Source: an uncultured SAR86 cluster bacterium
GTDB lineage: Bacteria > Pseudomonadota > Gammaproteobacteria > Magnimaribacterales > D2472
Assembly: GCA_902511425.1 (NCBI GenBank)
Contig: CABXFE010000006.1
Location: forward strand, 1-39,792
Direction: 5' to 3'
DNA length: 39,792 nucleotides
The notes below the pieces were generated by a model that searched no databases, had not been told where the DNA came from, and saw nothing but the letters and a program-made list of their open reading frames with translations. Position numbers and translations under genes: made by a program. Shown here one piece after another: positions 7,820-14,872 of this stretch; position 1 is the first letter of the stretch, and every line of letters begins with the position of its first letter.

Positions 7820-9484
7820 ATGGTTGCCTTTAATGAATTTTTATTACTTTTAGATGGATATCTTAGTGGCTCATGGTGGTTTCCAGCTTTCCTTATAGGT
7901 ACAGGTATATTCTTTACAGCCTATTTAGGATTTCCTCAATTTAAATTTTTTGCTCACGGCTGGAGAATTGTTACTGGTAAATATACAAAAGAGGAAGCTG
8001 ATGGTGAAACGACTCCATTTGAAGCTCTAACAACAGCAATGTCTGGTGCAGTTGGAACTGGAAACATTGGTGGTGTTGCTTTGGCTATCTGGATTGGAGG
8101 CCCTGCTGCAATATTTTGGATGTGGATTACTGCTATTTTTGGTATGACAACTAAATTTGTTGAAGTAACCATGGCTCATAAATACAGAACAACATTATCA
8201 GATGGGTCTATTTCTGGTGGACCCATGTACTATATTGAGAAAAGTTTTAACAAAAGATGGGCAGGGGTTCTTTTTGCCGCATTAATGATGATATGCGCAA
8301 TAGGATCAGGCAACATGCCTCAAATCAATAATATAGCAAGTGTGCTTGACTCTACATTTAGCATTCCGAAACTTGCCACTGGTTTGATTCTTGGATTTAT
8401 GTTGTGGCTGATTATCTCAGGTGGAATTAAAAGAATAGCAAAAATTGCCAGCAAACTTGTTCCATTTATGGCTGTAATCTATTTTGGTGGAGCTTTAATT
8501 GTTGTAATTGAAAATTATCAAAATATTATCCCATCATTTCATTCAATTTTTTCACAGGTTTTTTCTGGATCTGCAGCAGCTGGTGGGTTTCTTGGAGCTA
8601 GTTTTGCAATGAGCTTAAAACTAGGGGTTGCTCGAGGTCTTTACTCTAATGAGGCAGGACAAGGTTCATCACCAATAGCTCATGCATCTGCTAAAACTGA
8701 ACATTCAGTTGAACAGGGTATGGTCTCAATTTTAGAGCCATTCATCGACACTATAGTTGTCTGCAGTGTTACTGCTCTAGTAATATTATCAAGCGGAGCT
8801 TGGATTCAGAAATATGATAATACCTTTGAAAGATCTTCCATGGCCATTTTTGCTGGTGAATACACTGAATCAAATTCCAAAGATGTGGAAGAGCTCGGTA
8901 AATATATACTCGATGCTAGAAAGTTCACCACTAATACAACATCGGTAGAAAATTACTCAGGAATATTAAGAATTACTAAGGGTCAACTTCAGCAAAAGGA
9001 AGTTACAGTTTTTCATAATAACTCTATTGCCGAAGATGTAACTTTTTATCAAAATGGAAACCTCTTTGAGGGGCCGCTAGAAATAGTAAATGGAGAAATC
9101 AAGGATTCATCTATTGTAGTAGAAGGTAAATCTCTTATTCATTCAGCTGAACTAACCTCAAAGGCTTTCGGCTCAGGGGTTCTTGGAAAATATGGAGAGT
9201 ATATTGTCGCAATAGGCTTGCTTTTATTTGCATTCTCTACTGCTATTGCTTGGTCATACTATGGAGACAGATCTACTGCCTATATATTTGGTGAAAATGC
9301 AGTCCCGTGGTACAGATTAATTTATGTTGCCTGTTTTATTGCTGCAGCCATAATTGATACAACCGTTGTATGGAATATTGCTTATGTAGTAGTGGCCTTG
9401 GTAACAATTCCAAATTTATTTGCTCTATTTATTCTTAGAAAAGAAATGAAAGAGCAGGTAACAACCTATGTTATTGAGAAATAA
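7820..9484 (+). CDS. AGCS family Na+:alanine/amino-acid symporter
   Basis: Inner-membrane transporter coupling Na+ to uptake of alanine, glycine or a similar small amino acid. Diagnostic motifs: the AGCS signature SGAVGTGNIGGVA (75-87), GGPMYYIE (133-140) and LYSNEAGQGSSPIAHASA (274-291). At 554 residues it is about 80-100 longer than typical members; the excess is a hydrophilic insert, roughly residues 331-442, between GAW and the LTSKAF segment that leads into the last transmembrane helices. The downstream his operon converges on it with one base between the stop codons. Confidence 0.92.
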   Translation: MVAFNEFLLLLDGYLSGSWWFPAFLIGTGIFFTAYLGFPQFKFFAHGWRIVTGKYTKEEADGETTPFEALTTAMSGAVGTGNIGGVALAIWIGGPAAIFWMWITAIFGMTTKFVEVTMAHKYRTTLSDGSISGGPMYYIEKSFNKRWAGVLFAALMMICAIGSGNMPQINNIASVLDSTFSIPKLATGLILGFMLWLIISGGIKRIAKIASKLVPFMAVIYFGGALIVVIENYQNIIPSFHSIFSQVFSGSAAAGGFLGASFAMSLKLGVARGLYSNEAGQGSSPIAHASAKTEHSVEQGMVSILEPFIDTIVVCSVTALVILSSGAWIQKYDNTFERSSMAIFAGEYTESNSKDVEELGKYILDARKFTTNTTSVENYSGILRITKGQLQQKEVTVFHNNSIAEDVTFYQNGNLFEGPLEIVNGEIKDSSIVVEGKSLIHSAELTSKAFGSGVLGKYGEYIVAIGLLLFAFSTAIAWSYYGDRSTAYIFGENAVPWYRLIYVACFIAAAIIDTTVVWNIAYVVVALVTIPNLFALFILRKEMKEQVTTYVIEK

Positions 9485-9485
9485 A

Positions 9486-10082
9486 TTAGTTAGATCTATT
9501 TTTTAATTCATCAACAACATCTGAGTGGTTAAGGTTTAATTTTCTGAGCATAACCAATAAGTGATATAACAGATCAGCGGATTCATCAATCACTCTGCCA
9601 TCATTGGTTACAGCTGAGATGGAAACTTCTCCAGCTTCTTCTGTGAGCTTTTTTGCAATTTCTTTAATTCCATCTTTGTAAAGTTGATATGTATAAGACG
9701 ACAGATTTGCTTCATCAAATCTTGAATCTATTATTTGCTCTAGCTGATCAATAAAATTTGTTGATGATGGGGCGTCAATAAAGCATGAATTGTTATTTAA
9801 ATGACATGTAGGCCCATTATTTTTAGCTAGAATTAATAATGTATCTTTATCACAATCATGAATTATTTTGTGAATTGTTAATTTATTTCCAGATGTCTCT
9901 CCTTTTGTCCAAAGCCTTTGTTTGGTTCGACTATAAAAGGTAGCAAATCCAGATGATTGAGAAATTTTTAATGCTTCTTCATTCATATATCCCAACATTA
10001 ATACTTCCAACGTTTCATGGTCTTGAATAATAGCTGGTATTAATCCATTCACTTTATCCCAGTCTAGATTTATCATTTTCAT
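9486..10082 (-). CDS. hisI: Bifunctional PR-AMP cyclohydrolase / PR-ATP pyrophosphohydrolase
   Basis: Carries steps 2 and 3 of histidine synthesis (HisIE). The N-terminal HisI domain (about 1-105) shows MLGYMNEEAL, the RTKQRLWTKGETSGN signature, and cysteines in HDCDKDT and GPTCH that bind metal. The C-terminal HisE domain (about 110-198) shows LTEEAGEVSIS and ESADLLYHLLVML. Last gene of the his operon, overlapping hisF by 4 bp. The I-E fusion is common in enterics and relatives, unlike the D-B fusion in the same operon. Confidence 0.96.
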   Translation of the reverse strand: MKMINLDWDKVNGLIPAIIQDHETLEVLMLGYMNEEALKISQSSGFATFYSRTKQRLWTKGETSGNKLTIHKIIHDCDKDTLLILAKNNGPTCHLNNNSCFIDAPSSTNFIDQLEQIIDSRFDEANLSSYTYQLYKDGIKEIAKKLTEEAGEVSISAVTNDGRVIDESADLLYHLLVMLRKLNLNHSDVVDELKNRSN

Positions 10083-10846
10083 ATCCTTATATTAATACTA
10101 TTAGCTTTTAAAGATTCCTTAATCTCTTTTATAGAATATTCATTTCTATGGAAAATACTTGCTGCTAAGGTCCCATCAACATTTGTTTTCTCAAATACAT
10201 TTACAAAATCTCTTGGTCCGCCTGCACCACCTGAGGCAATCATCGGTATAGAACAGATATCTTCAAGTGAGTTCAATAACTCAATACTATAGCCACTTTT
10301 TACCCCATCATTACCCATAGCATTAACCACAACTTCTCCAGCACCAAGCTCTTGCACTCGAATCAACCAATCTTTAGCGTTTAAATTGGTTGAGTGTGAT
10401 GTTTTTTCACTTCCAGTCTTTGCAAAAATAAAAGCTTGATCACCAATATATTTAACGTCCATGCCAATAACCACACATTGTGAACCAAATTCATTGCTCA
10501 AATCATAGATCAAATCTGGATTATCTATGGCAGGTGTATTGATCGATATTTTGTCTGCACCAAGATTTAATATTTGTCTGGCATCCTCTACTGATTTGAT
10601 GCCTCCAGCAACACAGAAGGGGATATTAACAACATCAGCTATTTTTGAAATCCAATTTTTCTCAACAATTGAGCCTTTGGTGCTTGCTGATATATCATAA
10701 AACACTAGTTCATCAGCTCCATCATTTGAGTATTTTTCTGCTAAATCTAATATCGATCCAACAACTTGATGGTTTTTAAATTGAATGCCTTTAACCACCT
10801 TTCCATCTTTAACATCCAGACACGGTATTATTCTTTTAGTAATCAT
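10079..10846 (-). CDS. hisF: Imidazole glycerol phosphate synthase, cyclase subunit
   Basis: Pairs with HisH to convert PRFAR plus ammonia from glutamine into imidazole glycerol phosphate and AICAR. A (beta/alpha)8 barrel of 255 residues opening with RIIPCLDVKDGKVVKG (catalytic Asp in CLDV); the second catalytic Asp is in VIGMDVK, and phosphate-binding loops GGI and ASGGAGG are seen. It overlaps hisA by 11 bp and hisIE by 4 bp, indicating tight translational coupling. Confidence 0.97.
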   Translation of the reverse strand: MITKRIIPCLDVKDGKVVKGIQFKNHQVVGSILDLAEKYSNDGADELVFYDISASTKGSIVEKNWISKIADVVNIPFCVAGGIKSVEDARQILNLGADKISINTPAIDNPDLIYDLSNEFGSQCVVIGMDVKYIGDQAFIFAKTGSEKTSHSTNLNAKDWLIRVQELGAGEVVVNAMGNDGVKSGYSIELLNSLEDICSIPMIASGGAGGPRDFVNVFEKTNVDGTLAASIFHRNEYSIKEIKESLKANSINIRI

Positions 10847-11555
10847 TACTTAAATCCACTAAAGAAATATTTTTTTCATATATAGCTTTACCAACAACTG
10901 CTTCCTTTAAATTTAGAGCTTTTAATTTATCCAAATCCTCTAAGGATCTAATGCCACCCGAAGCAATTAAGTTTAATGCTGGAAATAATTCTAATATTTC
11001 TTTGTAAACATCGAAATTAGGCCCCTCCATAGCTCCATCTAGAGAAATATCGGTTGCTAGAATATTTTTAAAAAATAAATGGTTTGTTAGGAAGTCATGA
11101 AGTGACGTGTTGCTACTATCCTGCCAGCCATGCGTGAAAATTGTAGGAATTTGATTCTTGACTTTAAAATCTAGAGCCAGAACTATTTGCTTTGATTCAA
11201 AGTTTTTTTCTAGATCTATTAAAAAATCTCCATTAAATATAGCTGTACCCACAATAACCCTAGATACACCCATTTTTAGCATATTTTCAATTTTTTCAAT
11301 GCTTCTAACACCGCCTCCAACTTGAATAGATATGTCAGAAATTTTTAAGATTTCTCTAATAATTTCTTGATTAAGTTGTTTGCCTGTCTCTGCACCATCC
11401 AGATCAACAATATGAAGATAATTAAGTTTTTTTGACTTAAAAATAATTGCCTGTTCAATTGGATCAGAGTTGTATTCTGTAACTTGTTTAAAATCACCTT
11501 TAAGCAAACGAACACATCGTCCATTTTTTAAGTCAATAGCAGGGAATATTTTCAT
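10836..11555 (-). CDS. hisA: ProFAR isomerase
   Basis: Isomerises ProFAR to PRFAR, step 4 of histidine synthesis. A barrel of 239 residues starting KIFPAIDLKNGRCVRLLKG, with the catalytic Asp in AIDL, the opposite Asp in the ATDISLDGAMEGPN segment, and phosphate loops QVGGGVR and IASGGIR. It directly abuts hisH upstream and overlaps hisF downstream. Preferred over HisF by the AIDL opening and operon position. Confidence 0.96.
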   Translation of the reverse strand: MKIFPAIDLKNGRCVRLLKGDFKQVTEYNSDPIEQAIIFKSKKLNYLHIVDLDGAETGKQLNQEIIREILKISDISIQVGGGVRSIEKIENMLKMGVSRVIVGTAIFNGDFLIDLEKNFESKQIVLALDFKVKNQIPTIFTHGWQDSSNTSLHDFLTNHLFFKNILATDISLDGAMEGPNFDVYKEILELFPALNLIASGGIRSLEDLDKLKALNLKEAVVGKAIYEKNISLVDLSNDY

Positions 11556-12137
11556 TTAATTAATGCTTAAAAAATAATCTAAGAACTCTATACCTGCAGA
11601 GGAAGATTTTTCTGGATGAAACTGACATCCAATGAAATTATCTTTTTGTACTGCAGCTGCAAAAGGGTGGCCATACTCAGCAGATGCAAGTGTATTTTCG
11701 TAAATTTGAGAATAGTAGCTATTTGCAAAATAATAATAATTATCCAGTTTCTTAGTATTTTCCAGTAAAAAAGATACTTTATTCCAACCCATTTGAGGAA
11801 TTTTAAGATTTAACATTGAATCAAACTTTTTAATATCACCAGATATTATTTCCATGCACTTCGTATCATGCTCCTCTGAACGATCAAAAAGAACATGCAT
11901 ACCAATACATATTCCAAGAACAGGTTTTGTAAGATTTTTTATGATTTCTATAAGTTCATTAGATTCAAGACTATTCATCACACTCTTTGCAGAGCCAACG
12001 CCAGGAAGAATAACAAATGAGGCCTTAGAGATATCAGATTTATTTCTAGTAATAATAGCTTTTTGGTCTCTAAGCTCTATTGCTCTTTGCACAGATCGTA
12101 GATTGGCTCCTCCACAATCAACTATTGCTACTGTCAC
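11556..12137 (-). CDS. hisH: Imidazole glycerol phosphate synthase, glutaminase subunit
   Basis: Class I glutamine amidotransferase that feeds ammonia to HisF. The nucleophile elbow GICIGMH holds the catalytic Cys; CQFHPEKS supplies His and Glu of the triad; GVGSAKSVM is the oxyanion-loop region. 193 residues, normal for HisH. It overlaps the end of hisDB by 4 bp (ATGA-type). Confidence 0.96.
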   Translation of the reverse strand: MTVAIVDCGGANLRSVQRAIELRDQKAIITRNKSDISKASFVILPGVGSAKSVMNSLESNELIEIIKNLTKPVLGICIGMHVLFDRSEEHDTKCMEIISGDIKKFDSMLNLKIPQMGWNKVSFLLENTKKLDNYYYFANSYYSQIYENTLASAEYGHPFAAAVQKDNFIGCQFHPEKSSSAGIEFLDYFLSIN

Positions 12138-14005
12138 AATAAACCTTTAGTAGATGATGACCTAGATGACTCAATCACAACTGCTTTTTTTAAACACCTT
12201 GCAAAGGTTTTAAATGTAGCCTCTAGTAAATGATGAGAATTTTTTCCAGTTGTATCAATGTGACAGGTCATGGCAGCAGAATTTATCAAGGAGACAAAAA
12301 AGTGCTCAAACATTTCAGTAGGAAAATCACCAACATAATCTCTTAGTTGTGAGCATTGAAATTTAAGAAATCTTCTTGAGCTTAAATCTATGCTAATGCT
12401 ACTTTTAACTTCATCCATAACCAAGATTTCACTTGATGCATATCTTGATATGCCAACCCTGTCACCTAAGGAGGTGTTAATTGCTGAACCAAGTGCAATA
12501 GCTATATCTTCAATTGTATGGTGCTCATCTATCTCAAGATCACCTAAGCAAGTTAAATATAAATCAAAAGACCCATGTTTAGAAAACTGCTCCAAAAGGT
12601 GATCTAAGTATTTAAGACCTGTATTAATATTATAATTTCCAGTTCCATCAATATTTAAATTAAGATAAATACTTGTTTCATTCGTTTTTCTAATTTCTGT
12701 ATAACTTCTTGATGAAGCTTTGTGGTTAGCATTAGATTGTCTAATTTTTACAGCTTGTTCATGGGCATCTAATGATTCTGCTTGAGCCATTGTAATTACT
12801 GTATTCTTTAAGTTTTCAAATCCTTCTGATGATGCTGTTTGTACACTTATTTGTTTACCAAAATCTTTAACACCTAAACCTGAGTGAACTTTCGCCTGAC
12901 CATTTGTTGGTAAAACATGATTAGTGCCTGAAGAATAGTCTCCAAATGATTCAGGGCTTAATGCACCGCAAAAAATTGAACCTGCGTTATTAACCTCTAC
13001 TAGATATTTAGAGTAATCTTCATCCAATAGAATCAAATGCTCTGGCGCGCAATCATTGATTAAAACCAAGGTATCTTTAAAAGATTTAGCTTTAATTAAT
13101 AACAAATTTTCTATGCTTTGTTTTAAAACAGATTGTCTTGAAAGTTGCTGTATTTGCTCATTGACAGATGTTTTTATCTTCTTAAGAATTTTTAAATTAC
13201 TTGAAATAATGAACGCTCTTGAATCTGGATCATGCTCTAATTGCGATAATGCATCAGCCGCGGCAATAGAGGCCTTCTCAATATCATTTGAAACTATCAT
13301 GACTTCACTTGGGCCAGCAGGAAGGTCAATAGCGACATCACTTGAGCAAAGTTTTTTTGCTGCATTGACATATACATTTCCAGGACCAAATATTTTATTT
13401 ACTTTAGGAACAATTGTTGTCCCATATGCCATTGCAAGGATTGCTTGAGCTCCTCCAACTTTATATATTTCTTTTACACCATATACCTTTGCTATCCATA
13501 ATATTTCAGGTGATATTTCGCCAGATTTATTAGGGGGAGTGCAAACAATAATGTTTTTACAACCAGCTACCTGAGCTGGAATGAGCTGCATCAGTAGTGA
13601 GGAAATTAATGGTGCGCTTCCGCCTGGAACATAAATTCCAACAGAATCAATAGATCTAAATTCTTTCCATACTTGTATACCTTTTGTTGTCTCAATAGGG
13701 GTGCTTGATAAACCTTTTTTATCATTCTCACAAACAAGTTTAATATTTGCAGCTGAGTTGAGTATTGATTGTTTTAAATCATCAGAAACCAATGATTCTG
13801 ATTTTAAAATTTCAGATTGTTTAACTTTATATGATTTTGGAGACTTTAACTTTAATTCAGTATTTATTTCGGCAAATGCTTTTGTGCCTTTATTTAATAT
13901 AAGGTTTTTATATCTAATAACTTTTTTTAAAGCAGCATCATTGGAGCTATTTGCTGATAACCATGGTATTTTTTTTCTTGATGTTGAGCGATTAATAATA
14001 TTCAT
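12134..14005 (-). CDS. hisDB: HisD-HisB fusion: histidinol dehydrogenase / IGP dehydratase
   Basis: One uninterrupted 623-residue frame joining two non-consecutive steps of histidine synthesis. Residues 1-427 are a complete HisD: zinc ligands Gln255, His258, Asp356 and His415, and the catalytic Glu322-His323 in CAPEHL. From about residue 433 a complete HisB dehydratase domain follows (RKTNETS): GLKYLDHLLEQFSKHG, metal motif HHTIED (His495, His496, Glu499), second motif HHLLE (591-595), and the end SSSTKGLL. The HisN phosphatase domain found fused to enteric HisB is absent. The linker is only a few residues (NHKASSRSY, codons around 12700-12725). The classical order is hisG-D-C-B-H-A-F-I; here hisC is missing exactly at the D/B joint, so a deletion that fused D to B is the simplest origin. 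hisG abuts upstream with no gap; hisH overlaps by 4 bp. All visible catalytic residues argue that both halves are active. Confidence 0.95.
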   Translation of the reverse strand: MNIINRSTSRKKIPWLSANSSNDAALKKVIRYKNLILNKGTKAFAEINTELKLKSPKSYKVKQSEILKSESLVSDDLKQSILNSAANIKLVCENDKKGLSSTPIETTKGIQVWKEFRSIDSVGIYVPGGSAPLISSLLMQLIPAQVAGCKNIIVCTPPNKSGEISPEILWIAKVYGVKEIYKVGGAQAILAMAYGTTIVPKVNKIFGPGNVYVNAAKKLCSSDVAIDLPAGPSEVMIVSNDIEKASIAAADALSQLEHDPDSRAFIISSNLKILKKIKTSVNEQIQQLSRQSVLKQSIENLLLIKAKSFKDTLVLINDCAPEHLILLDEDYSKYLVEVNNAGSIFCGALSPESFGDYSSGTNHVLPTNGQAKVHSGLGVKDFGKQISVQTASSEGFENLKNTVITMAQAESLDAHEQAVKIRQSNANHKASSRSYTEIRKTNETSIYLNLNIDGTGNYNINTGLKYLDHLLEQFSKHGSFDLYLTCLGDLEIDEHHTIEDIAIALGSAINTSLGDRVGISRYASSEILVMDEVKSSISIDLSSRRFLKFQCSQLRDYVGDFPTEMFEHFFVSLINSAAMTCHIDTTGKNSHHLLEATFKTFARCLKKAVVIESSRSSSTKGLL

Positions 14006-14872
14006 TTAATTTAATATCTTCTCAACAGGCAGAACTAAAATTGAAGATGCGCCGTTTGATTTTAATTTTTCCATCGTCTCCCAAAAAACAGGTTCTTTAC
14101 ATAAAGCATGTATTGCAACTTTATTATCTTTTTGCAAAGGAATAATTGTTGGTGAATCAGCTCCTGGTAATAAATTACATATTTTATCGACAGCTCCACT
14201 ATCTACATTCAACATTACATACTTACTATCAGATGCATTAATCACACCTTCAAACCTTTTAACCAAATTAATTACATTCGTTTGTTTAACCTTTTTTAAT
14301 TCAACGGGCGAGATTAGGACAGCTTGAGATGTCATAAGTGTCTTGAACTCAATTAAGTTATTCGCCTCCAGTGTTACCCCTGATGACACTAAATCACAAA
14401 TACAATCTGCTATACCTATGTAAGGTGTTAATTCAACAGACCCATTAATTTTTATTACCTCAGCACTAATAGAATTCATTTTTAGATACTCTTTAACTAG
14501 TGCTGGATATGAAGTAGCAATACGTTTATTTTTAAGAGACCTCAATTTTGAATTTAACGGCTTTGCAAACGCAAGTTTGCACTTTGAAAAACCTAAATCA
14601 AGTATAGATTTAGCTGTTATTTTCTTATTGGTAGCAGTTTGCTCTGCTAAAACATTTTGACCAACTATACCAAGATCAGCAACTCCTTTGGAAACGAGTG
14701 ACGGTATATCATCATCTCTAACCAATAATATATCTATATCCATGGTAGAAGAGCGAGCCAAAAGCCTTTCACCAGACATTGAAAAATTGATCCCAGATTG
14801 GGCTAACAGATTTTTGCTATCCTCATAAAGCCTTCCTTTTCTTTGTATGGCTATAGTGATTTTTGATGACAT
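14006..14872 (-). CDS. hisG: ATP phosphoribosyltransferase (long form)
   Basis: Commits PRPP and ATP to histidine synthesis. 288 residues, the long HisG form: catalytic domains with IAIQRKGRLYEDS and GVADLGIVGQNV, a PRPP-type segment DLVSSGVTLEANNL, and a C-terminal ACT-like regulatory domain of about 75 residues (PGADSPTIIPL) that normally confers feedback inhibition by histidine. No hisZ is needed for this form. It lies 3 bp after the regulator gene and directly abuts hisDB. Confidence 0.96.
   Translation of the reverse strand: MSSKITIAIQRKGRLYEDSKNLLAQSGINFSMSGERLLARSSTMDIDILLVRDDDIPSLVSKGVADLGIVGQNVLAEQTATNKKITAKSILDLGFSKCKLAFAKPLNSKLRSLKNKRIATSYPALVKEYLKMNSISAEVIKINGSVELTPYIGIADCICDLVSSGVTLEANNLIEFKTLMTSQAVLISPVELKKVKQTNVINLVKRFEGVINASDSKYVMLNVDSGAVDKICNLLPGADSPTIIPLQKDNKVAIHALCKEPVFWETMEKLKSNGASSILVLPVEKILN

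Follow-up and report, generated by a model that had tools for sequence, protein, structure and literature searches.

A fused histidinol dehydrogenase and imidazoleglycerol-phosphate dehydratase gene in the histidine operon of a SAR86 family

The stretch of DNA analysed here (the window; 39,792 nucleotides) is part of contig C6 (CABXFE010000006.1) in the 1.14 Mb genome bin of an uncultured SAR86 cluster bacterium (GCA_902511425.1; 56% complete, 66 contigs), and carries a histidine operon on its minus strand. In this operon histidinol dehydrogenase (HisD) and imidazoleglycerol-phosphate dehydratase (HisB, IGPD) are encoded by one gene, hisDB. This HisD-HisB fusion is real, conserved and, as far as our literature searches go, undescribed. 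The operon order is hisG-hisDB-hisH-hisA-hisF-hisIE, with neighbours that abut or overlap by a few bases, and its features are as follows:

12134..14005, minus strand: hisDB, predicted bifunctional histidinol dehydrogenase / imidazoleglycerol-phosphate dehydratase, 623 aa (ORF, Pfam, NCBIfam, model)
12719..14005, minus strand: HisD part, residues 1-429, ending with helix 413-429, which bears H415 (Pfam 23-422; model helix)
about 12707..12718, minus strand: linker, residues about 430-433 (gap between helix 413-429 and strand 434-440 in the model)
12137..12709, minus strand: HisB/IGPD part, residues 433-623 (NCBIfam hisB models 432/433 to 623; R433 invariant in 36 fusion proteins)
14006..14872, minus strand: hisG, long form with HisG_C domain (ORF, Pfam, NCBIfam)
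11556..12137, minus strand: hisH, GTG start, 4-base overlap with the hisDB stop (ORF, NCBIfam)
10836..11555, minus strand: hisA (ORF, NCBIfam)
10079..10846, minus strand: hisF (ORF, NCBIfam)
9486..10082, minus strand: hisIE (ORF, Pfam, NCBIfam)

The hisDB frame runs from ATG to TGA without internal stops, on the minus strand; the first-pass annotation had given coordinates without a strand. Pfam places Histidinol_dh (PF00815) at residues 23-422 with 457.3 bits and IGPD (PF00475) at 462-605 with 172.7 bits (cut-off 27 for both), the latter over model positions 1-144 of 144. The NCBIfam hisD model (TIGR00069) matches residues 37-422 with 444.9 bits against a cut-off of 243.8. NCBIfam hisB models match from residue 432 onward, NF002114 barely above its cut-off (189.9 against 189) and NF002111 slightly below (229.6 against 231). 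The AlphaFold model, a monomer computed from an alignment of 36 fusion proteins, has two confident parts (mean pLDDT 88.5, pTM 0.79), and between the final HisD helix and the first HisB strand it leaves a linker of about 4 residues. In Foldseek searches the HisD structures 6an0 and 1kae matched over the length of the first part, and the IGPD structures 6fwh and 2f1d over that of the second.

Residues of the HisD part that are invariant across the 36 fusion proteins include Q255, H258, E322, H323, D356, E410 and H415, all aligned opposite identical residues of the 1k75 sequence; in the HisB part H469, H495, H496, E499, D500, H568, H591, H592 and E595 are among the invariant ones. We take these to be the catalytic and metal ligands, by correspondence with the zinc and catalytic residues of Escherichia coli HisD (Q259, H262, E326, H327, D360, E414 and H419) and the metal-binding motifs of IGPD (HHTxED and HHxxEAxFK). 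By profiles and ligand residues, hisDB thus qualifies at the sequence level both as a HisD and as a HisB/IGPD. The first-pass annotation had described a single intact frame with complete domains, all ligands and a linker of a few residues, and profiles, model and invariance bear this out. Codon comparisons of the window gene with L003, L004 and L013 (623 codons each) gave 103/50/291, 112/57/296 and 160/85/325 differences at positions 1/2/3, an excess at third positions which argues that the protein is under constraint. In the window gene no ATG, GTG or TTG stands in frame up to 25 codons before or after the HisB start, which makes a separate HisB an unlikely product of it.

The nearest named loci to the window are five SAR86 records (L032-L036), in which the frame crosses the junction; two of them coincide in place with genomes G002 and G033 and are not additional cases. 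Within the SAR86 family of the window genome (f1; 60 genomes searched) we found a single stop-free match over both domains in 34 genomes, counting G017, whose match starts at the edge of its contig, and G010, in which the first 53 residues are missing from that frame. The frame crosses the junction before the contig ends in three more (G022, G023, G034), giving 37 of 60 in total. G059, whose contig ends at the HisB start, and G057, whose his frames are broken throughout, were left out of this count. No hisD or hisB match was obtained in 21 genomes, including six of genus g5 and five of g7, and none of the 60 had intact separate hisD and hisB genes. In G035 hisH-hisA-hisF-hisIE is present, interrupted by a contig end. 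An assembly or binning artefact, against which the first-pass annotation had advised inspecting the junction in related genomes, might be suspected in a bin as incomplete and fragmented as that of the window; however, the junction is crossed in these 37 genomes and in the five named records, and we reject this explanation as having practically no chance of being right. The broken frames concern several his genes in G057 and hisG with the start of hisDB in G010, both few-contig assemblies, and probably reflect sequencing indels rather than decay.

The sister SAR86 families f2, f3 and f4 are arranged differently. Among the 27 genomes of f2 and f3, 23 have a separate hisD, two have hisB alone and two have neither; both genes are absent from all 13 genomes of f4. 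In the f2/f3 stretches that were read, a short hisG lies beside hisD in eight genomes and hisBHAF stands elsewhere in two. Family f1 holds a different, compact operon in place of these scattered his genes. Among the matches listed, hisF over its cut-off is absent from the genomes of g5 (6), g7 (5) and f4 (13), and from their gene content these are probable histidine auxotrophs. A hisF match in G014 was dropped as a his gene; its neighbours are surface-sugar genes and it was read as a paralogue.

The first-pass annotation held that hisC had been lost. It is indeed gone from the operon, but it is kept elsewhere: hisC exceeds the TIGR01141 cut-off in 25 of 36 f1 genomes, and loss from the whole genome is rejected for the family. 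In G026, G032 and G009 of f1 and in G063 of f2 it lies among aromatic-amino-acid genes in the order gyrA-serC-pheA-hisC-tyrA-aroA-cmk-rpsA, where profiles support serC, pheA, aroA and cmk (in G009) and gyrA and hisC (in G001), tyrA is below its cut-offs and rpsA is named by reading. The window bin, at its 56% completeness, gave no hisC match. Its contig C35 runs collinear with a segment of G001 contig C3 and breaks off within the gene preceding gyrA, about 5 kb short of the hisC position in G001, where gyrA, serC, pheA and hisC come next. Among the seven f1 genomes that are at least 90% complete, four carry both hisDB and hisC, in G028 hisDB is accompanied by a piece of hisC at a contig edge, and G029 (96%) and G031 (93%) lack hisDB, hisC and, among the matches listed, hisF over the cut-off. 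This joint absence fits a role of hisC in histidine synthesis; a counter-case is the f2 genome G075, which keeps hisC though it has no hisD, hisB or (among the matches listed) hisF match. In addition, hisC lies just beyond the his operon, facing it, in G027 (L218) and partly in G034 (L220).

For HisN, the histidinol-phosphate phosphatase, the DDDD-type profile TIGR01656 was over its cut-off in two of 36 f1 genomes (G002 and G008), and PF00459 proteins are present in all 60 genomes searched. The three PF00459 proteins of G000 and three of G026 all score less than the HisN cut-off; they resemble SuhB or CysQ, or belong to a third kind. This third inositol monophosphatase (IMPase)-like protein of f1 is found at L258:3688-4434, L261:3725-4471 and L264:3642-4412, and had no close counterpart among the compared proteins of one f2, one f3 and one f4 genome.

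Outside SAR86, the same fusion occurs in the class to which G100, the genome with L037 (Rhodothermales), belongs; its members are here called Rhodothermia-type bacteria. At least 19 of the 195 genomes searched in this class have an uninterrupted fused frame, and at least two more (G240, G257) have one cut by contig ends. A search of 395 genomes of the corresponding phylum gave at least 12 uninterrupted fused frames, those listed all lying within that class sample. Among 369 genomes of the class of the window genome, the matches listed include an intact fusion only in the window genome itself, and G442 and G554 have hisD and hisB adjacent and separate; fusions too diverged for one match could escape these genome searches. 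Among the annotated records in the best 10 of 391 from a plasmid collection hisD and hisB are separate, and D-B fusions are absent among the matches listed from sequence and fold searches of the PDB.

The Rhodothermia-type fusions (e.g. L037 and L222) have the same two parts in the same order as hisDB and measure 616-649 aa in 16 of 19 complete frames, with hisG directly upstream in 20 of 20 fused loci and hisH downstream in 18 of 20. They differ from the window protein in sequence (37-42% identity; 15 rows) and, by the operon tree described below, in origin. The 20 unfused genomes of this class that were read mostly have G-D-C-B or G-D-C-NB; in G273 and G283 separate D and B genes stand side by side with C absent, and G253 shows D-NB, again lacking C. 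Among matches listed, hisC was over its cut-off in all 24 genomes tested (21 fused plus G273, G283 and G253). Two loci of this class, L176:676-1632 (minus strand) and L177:2728-3687 (plus strand), have hisB with an N-terminal extension of about 130 aa directly after an unfused hisD; the L177 extension has no Pfam match, and both genomes are placed among fused relatives, an arrangement which suggests a split fusion or an intermediate.

Other neighbours in his operons are also found fused. In L079:7266-8918 (plus strand), from a Bacteroidales metagenome-assembled genome, a 551-aa protein joins HisC (11-339, TIGR01141 over cut-off) to IGPD (390-531) without a HisN part. In L254:3750-6113 (plus strand), from G363 of the window's class, a 788-aa protein joins HisD (34-427) to HisC (444-785), both over cut-off, and is followed by hisNB; hisG seems short and hisA is split nearby, so that frame errors are possible at this locus.

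Trees were built from chosen representatives: 90 rows for HisD, 79 for HisD+HisB and 59 for seven genes (1766 columns). In the HisD tree SAR86 f1 forms one clade (support 100) inside a Bacteroidota-like HisD set, its sister not being resolved, and f2/f3 HisD falls outside the SH-aLRT-100 group that contains f1 HisD. In the HisD+HisB tree f1 joins L039 (SH-aLRT 99), a contig of Candidatus Gracilibacteria SZUA-1403 on which hisC, hisD and hisNB are separate and in that order, with HisNB and HisC over their profile cut-offs. The fused Rhodothermia-type rows of this tree join the unfused G273/G283 (89), which implies that a fused gene was later split in this group or that fusion occurred in it more than once. 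The seven-gene tree again groups f1 with L039 (97), and 39 Bacteroidota and Rhodothermia-type rows group at 99. Topology tests used 56 of the 79 HisD+HisB rows and, in a retest of the seven genes, 52 of 59 rows. A single clade of all fused rows was rejected by the seven genes with p-AU 1.9e-5, and with p-AU 8.1e-77 after removal of L039 and six other rows.

We consider it fairly probable that a laterally acquired operon replaced the his genes of SAR86 f1, that a deletion joined hisD to hisB within it to give a bifunctional enzyme, and that the Rhodothermia-type fusion had a separate origin. The f1 ancestor would have acquired a compact operon of the hisGDC[NB]HAF[IE] kind, displacing its own scattered his genes. 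The operon copy of hisC and the hisN half of hisNB would then have been dispensable and lost, since another hisC already stood among the aromatic-amino-acid genes of the genome, which presumably also encoded a histidinol-phosphate phosphatase. A deletion that preserved the reading frame, reaching from the 3′ end of hisD to the N/B boundary of hisNB, would have fused D with B, and a similar fusion would have formed independently in Rhodothermia-type bacteria. The invariant R433 of the HisB part stands opposite the first R of the PRK motif that L039 HisNB has at its N/B boundary (R-x5-R-x3-E-T), and the HisD part retains its last helix; a single deletion that starts shortly after this helix and ends at the N/B boundary would give the observed junction. 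Since L039, the nearest unfused relative found, has hisNB, the hisN half was probably lost as well as hisC. From an ancestor ordered G-D-C-NB, as in Bacteroidota and many gammaproteobacterial operons, one deletion would have removed hisC too; from an ancestor ordered as L039, the hisN part alone would have been deleted and hisC lost apart.

Several points weigh against this reading. The deletion itself is an inference. It is Bacteroidota and gammaproteobacterial operons that place hisC at the fusion point, and given the order in L039, hisC need not have stood there in the direct ancestor. Of the first-pass proposals, an origin by deletion is plausible; that the fusion point coincides with the missing gene agrees with the hisGDC[NB]HAF[IE] order, but not with L039, in which hisC precedes hisD. 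L039 itself consists of a single contig, on which hisD and hisB are the sole members of the seven-gene set, and the HisD-only tree does not resolve it as sister of SAR86 f1. One clade of all fused rows was not rejected by HisD+HisB alone (p-AU 0.072), and the seven-gene test used LG+G4 without a mixture on rows of uneven gene content, many of them flagged for odd composition. Because the seven-gene trees reject one clade while HisD+HisB alone does not, separate origins of the SAR86 and Rhodothermia-type fusions are likely, not proven. In 11 of 34 fusion genes an ATG or GTG lies in frame close to where HisB begins, and some free HisB could be made from it. Moreover, of the two genes that the first-pass annotation had suggested seeking elsewhere in the genome, hisC was found in relatives beside the aromatic-amino-acid genes, whereas HisN was not found in SAR86 f1 by DDDD- and IMPase-type searches (PHP phosphatases were not searched). 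All eight IMPase-family proteins scanned are below the HisN cut-off, and the third IMPase-like kind is hardly a dedicated HisN, since it also occurs in the his-less f1 genomes G029 and G031.

Transfer of a fused operon from Rhodothermia-type bacteria was suspected from the shared architecture and then disfavoured by the trees. More generally, a single fusion event might lie behind both groups, the fused gene or its operon having passed from Rhodothermia-type bacteria to SAR86 or the reverse: the order of the parts is the same, the linker is similar, the order G-DB-H-A-F-IE recurs in three of the nine Rhodothermia-type loci whose wider surroundings were read, and the HisD+HisB test leaves room for one clade. 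However, the seven-gene data reject that clade, and f1 groups with the unfused L039 at 97-99. A fused gene that moved alone would evade the operon test, yet the HisD+HisB tree too prefers L039, and we judge a single fusion to be improbable. A stepwise route stands closer, although we put it at somewhat below even chances: hisC and hisN would have disappeared before the fusion, which brought hisD and hisB next to each other, and the hisD stop would have been lost later. Adjacent unfused D-B pairs without hisC do exist, in two Bacilli records, in G273/G283 and in G442/G554; D-NB adjacency is seen in G253 and L039, and in Listeria innocua hisB starts at the base immediately following the hisD stop, in the same frame. 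Such an adjacent, separate intact pair was nevertheless found in none of the 60 f1 genomes (the frames of G057 being broken throughout). The two Bacilli records also indicate that absence of hisC is not enough to produce a fusion.

The fusion might instead have been selected, as a D-B scaffold that holds the late pathway around HisC and HisN or fixes enzyme ratios. In its favour, the same fusion probably arose twice and is widely retained in both groups. On the other hand, D and B are not consecutive enzymes, Bacilli keep them adjacent and unfused, and other his neighbours fuse as well (HisC-HisB in L079, HisD-HisC in L254), as expected from operon neighbourhood and deletion; selection of this kind therefore seems to us unlikely. 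HisC and HisN catalyse the steps that lie between those of IGPD and HisD, and neither part of the fusion is therefore expected to hand its product directly to the other. According to our preferred reading, in which neighbourhood and deletion produced the gene, the C-terminal IGPD part would dehydrate imidazoleglycerol phosphate, the HisC and HisN steps would be done by other proteins, and the N-terminal HisD part would oxidise histidinol to histidine. HisD is a domain-swapped dimer, and the title of the structure 1k75 names domain swapping. IGPD forms a 24-mer whose N-terminal sheet is external (PMC10978614). With that geometry the HisD parts should point outward, and they would pair as dimers on the particle surface or between particles. 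One may imagine a megadalton HisDB particle, an IGPD 24-mer with 24 HisD parts as 12 dimers, which gathers HisC and HisN and was selected twice, in SAR86 and Rhodothermia; we regard this as speculative and rather doubtful.

Among known systems, HisNB of enterobacteria, Bacteroidota and others resembles hisDB in having a C-terminal IGPD behind another his enzyme within a compact his operon, but its N-terminal part is a DDDD phosphatase where hisDB has HisD (about 429 aa). The HisNB model NF003937 scores 232 on hisDB against a cut-off of 443, over residues 411-623 only, and neither Pfam nor NCBIfam finds a phosphatase domain. Fungal HIS4 is HisI-HisE-HisD with HisD last behind HisIE, by the portion consulted of a 2007 survey (PMC1963479); both proteins thus have HisD within a multi-enzyme his protein, whereas in hisDB HisD comes first with IGPD after it, and hisIE is a separate gene at 9486-10082. 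In the Bacilli operon hisZGDBHAF (Priestia megaterium L215, Listeria innocua L217) hisB directly follows hisD without hisC in the stretch read, as here; the genes are separate, with their own stop and start, and HisG is short with a separate regulatory subunit.

The first-pass annotation knew of no description of a D-B fusion, and our searches for a hisD-hisB or hisDB fusion found none either, in literature that mostly leaves out subscription journals. The consulted portion of the 2007 survey lists five his fusions, hisA/hisF, hisIE, hisHF, hisNB and hisIED, and HisD-HisB is not included (PMC1963479). In the accessible part of a study of 91 genomes of the Bacteroidota superphylum, HisD is without special structures and HisB is single-domain in Rhodothermota (PMC8305728), and the corresponding parts of a paper on archaeal fusions (PMC11237513) and of a his operon review (PMC10138114) do not name a D-B fusion. 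Nor does one appear in titles and abstract openings of the SAR86 literature among the matches listed.

Histidine biosynthesis is a model case for gene fusion and operon evolution, and SAR86 is very abundant in the ocean. We find the fusion moderately surprising, not for its biochemistry, which is ordinary, but for the pairing of non-consecutive enzymes and its likely repeat. A non-consecutive fusion that is fixed in f1 and was probably made twice offers a natural test of operon neighbourhood and deletion against selection for enzyme contact. Annotation may also be affected: where a pipeline assigns each gene a single name, hisDB could be labelled hisD and hisB reported missing. Beside the operon, positions 7820-9484 of the window (plus strand) encode a sodium:alanine symporter of 554 aa, which spans 495 residues against 375 profile positions and seems to carry an insert of about 120 residues.

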